Assembly (NCBI GenBank): GCA_030426605.1
Contig: JAUHXM010000013.1
Location: 1-46,723, forward strand
DNA: 46,723 nucleotides
Direction: 5' to 3'
Source of the DNA: Phycisphaerae bacterium
Lineage (GTDB): Bacteria; Planctomycetota; Phycisphaerae; Phycisphaerales; UBA1924
Made by a program: the position numbers and the translations under genes
The notes under the pieces: generated by a model
What the model was told of the DNA's origin: nothing
Seen by the model: only the letters and a program-made list of their open reading frames with translations
Database searches by the model: none
Shown here: piece after piece, positions 24,887-30,390 of the stretch
Layout of the letters: each line of letters begins with the position of its first letter
Position numbering within the stretch: the stretch's first letter is position 1

Positions 24887-26479
<1,593 letters not shown>

Positions 26480-26581: not shown

Positions 26582-28699
26582 ATGCCCGACCCCCTCCCGA
26601 TCGACGCCCTGGGCGGTGACCGCCTCGCGCTGCCCCACGCCGCGGACACCGAGTGGGTGCTCACCAACGCCCTCGGCGGGTTCGCGATGGGCACCGCGAC
26701 CGGGCTGCCCACACGCCGATACCACGGGCATCTCATCGCGGCGATGTCCCCCCCGGTCCGCCGCGTGCTCGCGCTGGGCCCGATCGCCGAGACCGTCATC
26801 CTCGATCCCGACGACCCGGACCCCGACGCACGTGCCGTGCACGTCCAGCCCTTCCACTTCGCCGGTCAGCCCGAGCCGTCCGAAGCCCCCCGCCCGGTCC
26901 GGTTCGAGCGCTCCGCCGAGGGGTGGTGTCGGTGGACGTACGAGTTCGACGCGACTCGGGCGGCCGGCGAGACCCTCCGCGTCCGCCTCGTCCGCACGCA
27001 CACGCTCGCGGATGGGCACAACGCCGCGTCCGTCCGGTACGAGCTGACCGCCCACGCGCCGGTGCGGCTCGAACTGCGACCGATCACGCCGCTGCGCGAT
27101 ATGCATGACCTGGTCGCGCCGGACGACCCCGGGCCCGAGCTCGAACGATCGTGGGCCGATGCGCAGGGGAACCCATTGGTGCTCGTCGCGCGCGACGGCG
27201 TCGGGCTCACCCTCCGAGTGACCGCCGAAGTTGGAAGCGCGTCCTTCCGCGCCGAAACGCACACCTGGCACGGGCTGAGCTACGCGTGGGAAGCAGCCCG
27301 CGGCCTGGACGACGCGGAGGACGCCCCCTCGCCCGGCGTCTTCGAGATCGTGGGGGACGGCACGCTCGATGCGCGCCTGGACGCCTCCGCCAACGCCCGC
27401 ACAGCCCCGCGCGAGCCGGAGCCAGCCGGCACGGCCCCGCGCGCCGACCGCCGCCGGTCGATGATCGCGCACCTGCGCGACGCCTGCCCGACCGAGGACC
27501 TCTACCGCGCGCAGACAATTGCGCGTCTCGCGTGCGCCGCGGACGACTTCGTCGTCCACTCCGCCGCGCTAGGAGCGGACGGCCGGTCCATCATCGCCGG
27601 CTACCCATGGTTCGCCGACTGGGGACGCGACTCGATGATCGCCCTGCCCGGGCTCTTGCTGCTCACGGGTCGGCACGACGAGGCGTTCGGCGTCCTCGAC
27701 ACGTTCGGGCGGGCGCGCAAGAACGGGCTCATCCCCAACCGCTTCGACGACGACGCCGGCCCGGCGCACTACAACACCGCCGACGCCTCCCTCTGGTTCG
27801 TCCACGCCTGCACGCAGTACCTGCACGCGTCGAACGACACCGAGCGCTACCTCGACGCGCTCGCCCCCGCGTGCGCCGAAATCATCGAGGCCCACACCGA
27901 GGGGACGGACTACAAGATCGGGATGGACCCCGCCGACTGGCTCGTCCGCGCGGGCGACGAGCGGACGCAGCTCACCTGGATGGACGCGAAACGCGACGGC
28001 GTCTGCTTCACGCCGCGCCACGGCAAGCCCGTCGAGATCAACGCGCTGTGGCACAACGCCCTCGGCTCGTTCGCCGACGGGCTCGAACGCGCCGACCCCG
28101 CGTGCGCCGCGTCGCTGCGCCAGACCGCCGAGCGGGTCGCCGCGTCGTTCCGCGACGCCTTCGCGAACGGGCCCGAGGGCGGGCTCGTCGATTGCCTCAC
28201 ACCGGAGGGCCGCCGGTGGCGGGCGTCCACGGAAGTCCGCCCGAACCAGGTGTTCGCGGTGTCGCTGCCGCACTCCCCGCTGGGCGCCGATACCCAGCGT
28301 CGCGTGGTCGGCGTCGTCCGCGAGCACCTGCTCACGCCCGTCGGGCTCCGCACACTCGCGCCCGATGACCCCGGATACCAAGCGCGGTTCGAGGGCTCGA
28401 TCTTCGAGCGTGACGCGGCATACCACAACGGCACCGTCTGGCCCTGGCTCATGGGCCCGTACGTCGAGGCCCTGCTGCGCTCCGAGTCGTTCTCGACCGA
28501 TTCACGCGCGCACGCGAAGCGGCTGCTCGACGGGCTCGCCCGCGAGCTCGATCACAACGGCATGGGCCAGGTGTGGGAGATCTACGACGCCGACGAGCCA
28601 CGCACTCCCGACGGGTGCATCGCCCAGGCGTGGTCGGTCTCGGAGCTGATCCGCGGCTACGCGCTCAGCAGTGCTGGTTGTCCTTCGGGCGTGCCTTGA
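26582..28699 (+). CDS. glycogen debranching enzyme-type amylo-alpha-1,6-glucosidase
   Basis: A protein of 705 residues from ATG 26582. The N-terminal domain (about 1-290) begins EWVLTNALGGFAMGT and contains TRRYHGHLIA, as in the archaeal/bacterial GDE family. The C-terminal (alpha/alpha)6 barrel has GYPWFADWGRDSMIALPGL (about residues 340-358), the catalytic-region TWMDAK, GKPVEINALWHNAL and HNGTVWPWLMGPY. Such enzymes hydrolyse alpha-1,6 branch points in glycogen or similar glucans in the cytoplasm. The C-terminal 30 bases overlap the end of the convergent small membrane-protein gene. The start lacks a ribosome site and has a TACGCT hexamer six bases upstream. Confidence 0.92.
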   Translation: MPDPLPIDALGGDRLALPHAADTEWVLTNALGGFAMGTATGLPTRRYHGHLIAAMSPPVRRVLALGPIAETVILDPDDPDPDARAVHVQPFHFAGQPEPSEAPRPVRFERSAEGWCRWTYEFDATRAAGETLRVRLVRTHTLADGHNAASVRYELTAHAPVRLELRPITPLRDMHDLVAPDDPGPELERSWADAQGNPLVLVARDGVGLTLRVTAEVGSASFRAETHTWHGLSYAWEAARGLDDAEDAPSPGVFEIVGDGTLDARLDASANARTAPREPEPAGTAPRADRRRSMIAHLRDACPTEDLYRAQTIARLACAADDFVVHSAALGADGRSIIAGYPWFADWGRDSMIALPGLLLLTGRHDEAFGVLDTFGRARKNGLIPNRFDDDAGPAHYNTADASLWFVHACTQYLHASNDTERYLDALAPACAEIIEAHTEGTDYKIGMDPADWLVRAGDERTQLTWMDAKRDGVCFTPRHGKPVEINALWHNALGSFADGLERADPACAASLRQTAERVAASFRDAFANGPEGGLVDCLTPEGRRWRASTEVRPNQVFAVSLPHSPLGADTQRRVVGVVREHLLTPVGLRTLAPDDPGYQARFEGSIFERDAAYHNGTVWPWLMGPYVEALLRSESFSTDSRAHAKRLLDGLARELDHNGMGQVWEIYDADEPRTPDGCIAQAWSVSELIRGYALSSAGCPSGVP

Positions 28700-28928
28700 T
28701 GATCCGCTCGCCCTCGGCAGGCGTCATGGACCCCTCGGCGATGTACGCCGCAACGTCACGCTTCGTGCGCTCGATCGCGCGGTCTTTCACGATCGCGTGA
28801 ACGGTCGCGCACAGCACCCACACGAACGCCACGATGCACCCGAACGTGATCGCCGCCAGCGGGACGATGTTGCGGAGCACCTCTTGCGGCATATCGGACG
28901 ACGCGAGCGTCTCGGCGCATGCAGACAT
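28665..28928 (-). CDS. small membrane protein with AAY(I/V)AEGSMTP motif, copy C
   Basis: A protein of 87 residues starting at ATG 28928 with GGGGGG upstream. It has an outer N-terminus with one Cys, one membrane helix at about residues 21-44 (IVPLAAITFGCIVAFVWVL), a basic linker and the shared C-terminal motif DVAAYIAEGSMTPAEGERII, ending KDNQHC. It is the last of three tandem paralogues on the minus strand, 15 bases after copy B. The motif resembles the short helical SHOCT-type tails of oligomerising membrane proteins, but I would not equate them. Its end overlaps the debranching gene by 35 bases. Confidence 0.8.
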   Translation of the reverse strand: MSACAETLASSDMPQEVLRNIVPLAAITFGCIVAFVWVLCATVHAIVKDRAIERTKRDVAAYIAEGSMTPAEGERIIKARPKDNQHC

Positions 28929-28943
28929 ATGTGAACCCCCCGG

Positions 28944-29198
28944 TTAGTCGTCGTTGCCGGCCGTCAGCAGACGCTCAGCGTCCTCGGGCGTCATGGACCC
29001 CTCGGCGACATACGCCGCCACCTCGCGGCGCGTCTCCTCGCGCTGCTTCGTCTTCTTCGTGCTCGCGACGGTGCCCGCGAGGATCGCAACGATCGCGACC
29101 AGCAGCCCGCCCGCGACCGCGATGATCGGGATCAGGTTCTCGTTGCCGTGCCCGAAGTCCATCTGGGCAACGTCGGCGAGTGTCAGCACACAGTCCAT
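28944..29198 (-). CDS. small membrane protein with AAY(I/V)AEGSMTP motif, copy B
   Basis: A protein of 84 residues starting at ATG 29198 with GAGGAG about 7 bases upstream. It has a short N-terminus, a membrane helix at about residues 22-43 (LIPIIAVAGGLLVAIVAILAG), a strongly basic segment (KKTKQREETRRE) and the shared motif EVAAYVAEGSMTPEDAERLL, ending AGNDD. Unlike its two neighbours it has no C-terminal Cys. It lies 22 bases after copy A and 15 bases before copy C, so all three are probably one transcript. The motif would face the cytoplasm if the basic linker is inside. Confidence 0.82.
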   Translation of the reverse strand: MDCVLTLADVAQMDFGHGNENLIPIIAVAGGLLVAIVAILAGTVASTKKTKQREETRREVAAYVAEGSMTPEDAERLLTAGNDD

Positions 29199-29220
29199 CG
29201 TTCAGGCTCCTCTCGTGTGC

Positions 29221-29460
29221 TCAGCAGCACCGGTTCTTGCGGGTGCCCGCCGCGAGGACACGCTCGCCGTGCTCGGGCGTCATCGAGCCCTCGGCGATGT
29301 ACGCCGCGATCTCACGCTTCGTCCGCTCCTGGCTGATGCCGGTCACCACCCGCGTCACGGTCTTGAAGAACAGCCCGACCAGGATCGCCCCGGCGATCAA
29401 CGCCGGGATGAACATGTCCTCGTCCGACGTGATCCGCATCAAGATCTCATTGATATCCAC
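29221..29460 (-). CDS. small membrane protein with AAY(I/V)AEGSMTP motif, copy A
   Basis: A protein of 79 residues. I chose GTG 29460 because GGGAGG lies seven bases upstream; an in-frame ATG at 29493 has no ribosome site. It has an acidic N-terminus, a membrane helix at about residues 18-37 (FIPALIAGAILVGLFF), a linker (VTGISQERTKR) and the shared motif EIAAYIAEGSMTPEHGERVL, ending KNRCC. The three copies are close to identical in DNA over the motif but differ elsewhere. It lies 123 bases downstream of the unknown 268-residue gene on the same strand. Confidence 0.82.
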   Translation of the reverse strand: MDINEILMRITSDEDMFIPALIAGAILVGLFFKTVTRVVTGISQERTKREIAAYIAEGSMTPEHGERVLAAGTRKNRCC

Positions 29461-29583: not shown

Positions 29584-30390
29584 TCAGAGCCGCCCCAGGG
29601 CCCTCCCCACGGCCAGGCACCAGGCGGAGTAGAAATCGAACGTCAGCGTCCTGGGCGACCACCCGGGCGGCTTGACCATCCCGCCCCGCAGCCCAAACCG
29701 CTCGAATCCCACGTCCACCGGCGCGTCGGACGCGAGCGACGCGAGCAGCGTCGTGAGCTTGCCCATGTTCACCCGGTCGGACGCCCCGCGCGCCTCGCCC
29801 AGCACGTCGAAGCTCATCTTGTCCGCATCGACGCGCAGCGTCCGCCCGCCCGCGAGGTGCAGGTCCAGCAGTTCGACCATGCTGCGGATGCTCGTGGGCA
29901 CGGGCGCGTCCGGGCGGAGGTCCGCGTGCAATCGGCGCGCGAGCGGCGCCATCGTCATCTCGATGTCAAGCGGGTTGTCGTCCAGGGCCGCGGCGGACCG
30001 GCGCTCGCTCGGCTTGATCGTGCCACGCACGAGCTGGCGGATGTCCGACGTCTGGAACACCTCCGAATCGGCGCGCCAGAACTCGACCGCGACCGACCCG
30101 CCGCCCTCGAACAGGTGAAACCGCTTGACGCCCTCGGGCTTGGGCGCGGCGCGGATATCCGACTCCGTCGGCGCGAGCGCGAGCACGCCCTCGCCCTGCA
30201 GCATCATGACGACGTCCGGCGCGATCGACGCGTCGATCAGCTGAAACACCTGTGGCAGCCCCCGCGCCACCGCGAGCCGCGCCTGCCCCGGGTCAATCCC
30301 CGCGGCACCGACCACCGCCTCGACGCACGCGTCGGGCGTCCACCCCGCGGGCCAGCTGACGACGGAGAGATAGGCACGCTCGGCGCTCAC
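29584..30390 (-). CDS. uncharacterised 268-residue protein
   Basis: A soluble-looking protein from GTG 30390. It has no signal peptide or membrane segment. The N-terminus (LSVVSWPAGWTPDACVEAVV) and DVVMMLQGEGVLALAPTESD read as a mixed alpha/beta domain; the middle (GEARGASDRVNMGKLTTLLASL) and the C-terminus (TLTFDFYSAWCLAVGRALGRL) are hydrophobic and well ordered. I do not recognise a family. The start has no ribosome site; TACGCT lies six bases upstream on the minus strand. It is divergent from the zinc-ribbon gene 60 bases away and upstream of the three small membrane genes, with which it may share a transcript. Confidence 0.65.
   Translation of the reverse strand: MSAERAYLSVVSWPAGWTPDACVEAVVGAAGIDPGQARLAVARGLPQVFQLIDASIAPDVVMMLQGEGVLALAPTESDIRAAPKPEGVKRFHLFEGGGSVAVEFWRADSEVFQTSDIRQLVRGTIKPSERRSAAALDDNPLDIEMTMAPLARRLHADLRPDAPVPTSIRSMVELLDLHLAGGRTLRVDADKMSFDVLGEARGASDRVNMGKLTTLLASLASDAPVDVGFERFGLRGGMVKPPGWSPRTLTFDFYSAWCLAVGRALGRL

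Follow-up and report, generated by a model that had tools for sequence, protein, structure and literature searches.

The 46,723-nucleotide (nt) window analysed here is one whole contig (JAUHXM010000013.1) of the 3.29 Mb genome of a Phycisphaerae bacterium, and it carries three small tandem genes that we call copies A, B and C. We show that these genes belong to an unnamed family of predicted single-pass membrane proteins in the order Phycisphaerales, encoded in self-contained arrays of one to four non-equivalent copies. Our profile comparisons indicate that the tail common to these proteins is a divergent SHOCT-like two-helix hairpin, related to and built similarly to the domains of the Pfam family PF22746 (SHOCT-like_DUF2089-C), though not a formal member of that family. 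We found no paper describing the proteins, by title or abstract start, in the literature on SHOCT, DUF2089 and tandem small planctomycete membrane proteins.

The original prediction, made from the letters of the window, described three tandem small membrane paralogues of 79, 84 and 87 residues, separated by 15-22 nt. The genes indeed lie in this arrangement on the minus strand: copy A at 29221-29460 (79 residues, GTG start), copy B at 28944-29198 (84 residues) and copy C at 28665-28928 (87 residues), with gaps of 22 nt between A and B and 15 nt between B and C. All three proteins have a short acidic N-terminus, a single hydrophobic helix, a basic stretch and a near-invariant tail (KREIAAYIAEGSMTPEH, RREVAAYVAEGSMTPED and KRDVAAYIAEGSMTPAE). 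The tail follows the pattern (K/R)RE(I/V)AAY(I/V)AEGSMTPE..ER(L/V/I)(L/I), from which copy C deviates by RD for RE and by A for the last E. In copy A, an acidic ..SDEDMF.. segment at the N-terminus is followed by the membrane helix and then by the tail QERTKREIAAYIAEGSMTPEHGERVL, with CC at the end. The sequences also bear out the predicted invariance of the tail and the presence of a terminal Cys in A (...NRCC) and C (...NQHC) and not in B (...GNDD).

All three genes were called coding by a gene caller that had learned its codon usage from the array loci. This caller offers alternative starts for A (an upstream ATG, 90 residues) and for C (a downstream ATG, 75 residues). We prefer the GTG start for A because GGAGG lies 7 nt before it and the homologue at locus L062 has the same start, and the 87-residue form of C because it keeps the ETLAS N-terminus, as in relatives. 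A whole-genome search found no further copies beyond A, B and C. A promoter scan found no sigma-70-like promoter, and the same scan gave three terminator-like matches on mixed strands.

A profile built from A, B and C matched 42 of 61 related genomes and, as read from the match table, 33 of these 42 carry two or more neighbouring copies. In the taxonomic family of the window, 33 of 37 genomes matched and 31 of the 33 carry at least two adjacent copies, so that the tandem layout seen in the window is the rule in this family. In the rest of the order, 9 of 24 genomes matched, two of them with adjacent copies; the match in G040 is weak and at best distant. This genome encodes, at L155:5738-6001, a small membrane protein whose tail reads KREMVAKGYHADEIERVV; it is at best a distant relative and may be a remote version of the array architecture. 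Searching the 19 unmatched genomes with a deeper profile gave no strong match. At the level of the phylum, 17 of 392 genomes matched, three of them weakly, and every strong match fell within Phycisphaerales. Two of the weak matches, one to the membrane helix (L128) and one to the tail (L129), are partial and lie in long frames, and they were not counted as members.

The loci compared below are the best 80 of 126 public relatives plus the window (81 loci). The titles of these 80 are nearly all Phycisphaerales, Phycisphaeraceae, Phycisphaerae, Phycisphaera or Planctomycetota. L071, titled Cyanobacteria, and L079, titled Vicinamibacteraceae, are probably misnamed bins, since their neighbourhoods match Phycisphaerales loci. 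We called 191 members in the 81 loci, with one copy at 15 loci, two at 31, three at 26 and four at 9. In each of the 110 adjacent pairs both genes share a strand, and the gap between them has a median of 25 nt.

The copies of an array fall into ancient, non-equivalent classes according to their position, as judged from their phylogeny. The tree built from the full set of 191 members separates first from later copies as two classes, with six label changes. When single-copy loci and rows more than 60% identical were left out, the remaining 96 non-redundant rows gave three label changes, versus a mean of 22 and a minimum of 18 in shuffles. With the same rows, the membrane part alone gave 6 label changes and the tail alone 15. 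Only 2 of 176 rows have a copy from their own locus as closest neighbour in the tree, and 12 of the 15 single-copy rows have mainly first copies among their five nearest; branch supports in these trees are low, the proteins being short. First copies are marked by Glu-Asp directly before the membrane helix, Arg ten residues before AEG and Gln eight residues after it, and later copies by a Pro- and Gly-rich helix start and Asp or Glu eight residues after AEG. The last site is Gln in 93% of first copies versus Asp or Glu in 82% of later copies. Nearest neighbours place A with the first copies (class 1), as do its diagnostic residues, and B and C with the later ones (class 2).

These classes bear on the origin of the shared motif, which the original prediction had put down to either strong selection or recent copying. 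Selection on the tail stands: the residues E, R, E, AA, Y and AEG are identical in 97-100% of 190 members, and the Gly in 100%. For one copy at each locus, part of this invariance comes from the search itself, because the DNA patterns used to find the loci require parts of the motif; the further copies were not selected in this way, but the profile that recognised them also covers the tail. Gene conversion and recent copying were rejected in view of the ancient classes and of the DNA itself. The motif DNA is nearly the same in the three genes, as had been noticed (78-87% identity between copies over 45 nt), but no more so than the protein and a G+C content of 92% at third codon positions (GC3) predict. 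When codons for the same amino acids were drawn from the usage of the window (GC3 0.92), mean identities were 74-81% and the observed value was reached in 16-30% of draws (P 0.16-0.30). The likeness of the motif DNA is thus a protein-level one.

The N-terminus and the membrane helix vary across the 190 members. A hydrophobic stretch of 19 residues is present in 187 of them, and in all 190 the Lys and Arg count is higher after the membrane segment than before it. According to the positive-inside rule, the basic side of a membrane helix faces the cytoplasm. Because of this rule and the basic excess C-terminal of the helix, the proteins are predicted to cross the membrane once, with the N-terminus outside and the hairpin inside. 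The AlphaFold2 model of B comprises a first helix of 45 residues (22-66), a turn that contains a Gly (67-70) and a second helix (71-80), and block means of the predicted local distance difference test (pLDDT) are 96-98 over residues 31-80. The alignment behind this model has 105 sequences, namely 102 locus rows and the three window genes, L053 copy 4 and L078 copy 2 having been dropped from the 104 non-redundant ones. Along the membrane helix, small residues repeat with the helical periods 3.5 and 3.6 (P 0.035-0.045, column shuffles) and not significantly with two other periods, which is a weak hint of helix packing. A ..TLA.. or ..TLG.. segment precedes the membrane helix in 40 of 190 members and in 0 of 99 other small called genes.

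Enrichment of cysteine at the C-terminus is real. Among 190 members, 72 have a Cys within their final four residues and 32 end in Cys; among 739 other genes of these loci, the counts are 41 and 6. Of 66 multi-copy loci, 54 include one or more copies with a Cys tail, compared with 48.9 expected (P 0.02).

Several lines of evidence connect the tail with the PF22746 hairpin, in agreement with the SHOCT-like character first proposed for it. No Pfam family matches more of the 105 non-redundant members than PF22746, with 65 at E<=1; the runner-up matches 10. In a six-frame PF22746 search of the whole genome, copy B was the best match and copy C the fourth of five, all of them below cut-off. Among the members scanned singly, for which bit scores were seen, L102 copy 2 scored 25.2 bits, and a second hairpin that follows the AAYIAEGSMTP hairpin of L037 copy 4 scored 27.0 bits, exactly the Pfam cut-off; this is the only copy seen reaching it, and its E-value is the best over all 105 members. 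Second hairpins are present in 6 of 190 members, as counted with a simple pattern. An AlphaFold2 run on six long-tailed relatives, L037 copy 4 first, drew two consecutive hairpins at a low pLDDT of 65.8. Reciprocally, the family profile retrieves from G041, at E 0.003, a genuine PF22746 protein, which itself scores 43.4 bits with PF22746. Alignment of the family with planctomycete PF22746 domains in hhalign gave a probability of 96.6% and a score of 37.9 over 25 columns. None of 200 column permutations did as well (scores of at most 18.3), and the reversed profile gave 0.3%. On the minus strand of the window, the hairpins correspond approximately to 29248-29319 in A (from KREIAAYIAEG to ERVLAA, limits set by alignment with PF22746-type domains), 28956-29030 in B (PF22746 match 28956-29009) and 28692-28763 in C (PF22746 match 28692-28742). 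NCBIfam gave nothing above chance, and a sequence search of solved structures gave one chance-level match, to the membrane helix.

The likeness is apparent when a planctomycete PF22746 domain (RRILDMLAEGKISADDAERLL) is set beside the family consensus (RREIAAYVAEGSMTPEDGERLL). Both have two short helices around an invariant Gly and the pattern I..(M/Y).A.EG.(I/M)(S/T)..(E/D)(A/G)..LL, and about 25 residues align. In the PF22746 proteins compared, the hairpin either starts a soluble-looking protein (the RRILDMLAEGKISADDAERLL proteins, L164-L173) or ends a zinc-ribbon/helix-turn-helix-like one. In the array proteins, by contrast, it ends a single-pass membrane protein and is marked by the family-specific AAY, by a Ser that follows the Gly and by E...RE upstream. 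In the planctomycete proteins with an initial PF22746 hairpin, a shared domain comes next, and many of these proteins end in IFCE. At L167, one of them adjoins a zinc-ribbon/helix-turn-helix-like protein that is itself hairpin-ended, and L169 has a similar one.

The array is a unit of its own, because its flanks differ by lineage. Next to the window array, a 268-residue gene lies upstream of A on the same strand (29584-30390, minus), 123 nt away; a glycogen debranching enzyme gene (26582-28699, plus; named through the homologue at L062) is convergent, and the final 35 nt of C overlap its 3' end; and guaB, encoding IMP dehydrogenase (24887-26479, minus; named through the homologue at L097), is the next gene on the array strand. 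Within four genes of the array at the 81 loci, neighbour clusters, each named from the Pfam match of one member, count 35 entries for guaB, 33 for the glycogen debranching enzyme, 32 for the divergent aat, 20 for the 268-residue family, 16 for queA, 14 for a pyridoxal phosphate-dependent enzyme and 13 for Mur ligases. Genes for PTS-EIIA, queA and Mur ligases flank some arrays; aat, the 268-residue gene, the glycogen debranching gene and guaB flank many others. The 268-residue gene, singled out in the original prediction, is real and a member of its own unnamed family without a Pfam match, but it stands near only part of the arrays and is not a consistent partner. No shared neighbour of unlinked extra copies was seen in 14 regions from 13 genomes, some of these regions being the main array. 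The proposal that the genes beside the array might point to its partner thus failed: the flanks are differing housekeeping genes, which serve as context only and are uninformative on function.

A role for these proteins can be proposed from their anatomy. We tentatively favour, with somewhat less than even confidence, a membrane scaffold whose non-equivalent subunits present a shared docking hairpin to a common partner. The membrane helix and its rod-like extension would reach into the cytoplasm as one rod and hold the hairpin just under the inner membrane. Through their membrane helices, the two copy classes would come together as a mixed oligomer. The resulting patch of near-invariant AAYxAEGS hairpins could dock one common cytoplasmic partner, or pack against itself, and so keep it at the inner membrane. 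In favour of this reading are the homology of the hairpin, the modelled rod and predicted topology, the constraint on the tail, the self-contained arrays and, as a weak hint, the spacing of small residues in the membrane helix; the conserved, non-equivalent copy classes are compatible with the hetero-oligomeric complex of the original prediction.

A number of observations weigh against this scaffold or against the hairpin on which it depends. The PF22746 cut-off of 27 bits is missed by the window copies (B, 15.0 bits in hmmscan; C, 12.3 bits in the six-frame search; A, unmatched), and for this reason we do not call the window proteins formal members. The canonical SHOCT model, PF09851, leaves the window genes unmatched, and its sole match in the genome lies on another contig; of the SHOCT comparison first suggested for the tail, it is the likeness to PF22746-type hairpins that holds. 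SHOCT is likewise a short two-helix domain, usually C-terminal and without an assigned function, according to passages of Eberhardt et al. (PMC3581485). Foldseek against the PDB returned nothing below E 3.8, and hairpins are short and simple, so that convergence is possible. In the same passages of Eberhardt et al., the isolated, representative SHOCT domain caused no multimerisation of the protein that carried it, which leads us to disfavour the label of oligomerisation helices that the name had suggested for the tails. No conserved partner gene was found beside the array across the 81 loci. The array is missing from 4 of the 37 genomes of the window's family, and it is thus dispensable, or those assemblies are incomplete. 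Finally, a single copy is present at 15 of the 81 loci, some of them near contig ends, indicating that a mixed oligomer would not be obligatory.

Almost as likely as the mixed oligomer, and itself possible rather than probable, is that the copies act as independent tethers, each with its own membrane helix or outer tail, and so its own location or signal, while the same hairpin recruits the same partner. A constant tail joined to a variable N-terminus and membrane helix is what such tethers would show, and lineages with a single copy, mostly closest to first copies, do exist. SHOCT-like domains have also been proposed, in part of a survey of the phage-shock protein (Psp) system, to anchor disparate domains at the membrane (mSystems 2024, PMC11237479). 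However, the tight array kept in 33 of the 42 matched genomes fits a fixed stoichiometry better, and class-specific residues occur within the tail and linker as well. Assembly through the C-terminal cysteines, linked to redox state or metal, appears doubtful. The enrichment of Cys tails described above speaks for it, but over half of the members (104 of 191) lack any Cys beyond the motif, and the predicted location of the tail is the reducing cytoplasm. We give hardly any credence to the view that the copies are recent duplicates or non-functional small open reading frames retained by chance. The tandem layout and the lack of an assigned function would be compatible with it, but order-wide conservation, ancient classes, coding-like codon use, a near-invariant motif and DNA identity at the level of codon bias are not, and we conclude that the array genes are a real conserved family and not chance open reading frames.

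An envelope-stress sensor or regulator of the phage-shock kind, similar to PspB, is unlikely, if slightly less so than assembly through cysteines. The outline of the array proteins resembles that of PspB, in which a single membrane helix likewise leads into a helical part in the cytoplasm, and SHOCT-like domains recur next to Psp components, both according to portions of the Psp survey (PMC11237479). The survey describes SHOCT-like variants, among them the C-terminal part of DUF2089, and names no planctomycetes as far as its main text goes. Unlike PspB, however, the array has no linkage to PspA or PspC, and PspB is absent among the Pfam matches listed for the window genes and members. PspA/IM30 was found in 1 of 61 relatives versus 9 of 14 control genomes, and the single positive relative, G022, is without an array, though this is just one case. 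PspC was found in 5 of the 61, four with an array and one without, and neither protein is among the recurrent array neighbours identified; a phage-shock linkage was rejected on these grounds. The neighbours identified next to the array include no recognised regulator or sigma factor either. A bolder idea, which we regard as improbable, is that the mixed arrays are the Phycisphaerales' own sub-membrane scaffold, made of two ancient, non-interchangeable classes that would assemble in the inner membrane and offer a common surface for docking, and doing the job of PspA and its partners in an order that is nearly free of PspA.

The novelty of these results lies in a conserved and unannotated gene family of poorly studied planctomycetes, the SHOCT-like hairpin being a kind of domain already known. 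To our knowledge, no function has yet been assigned to SHOCT-like hairpins, widespread as they are. The array proteins, as predicted here, would represent the simplest form of a SHOCT-like architecture, a membrane helix and a hairpin. Therein lies their interest for the study of these domains: arrays that keep separate copy identities across an order may provide a clean test case both for what the hairpin binds and for whether the copies assemble.

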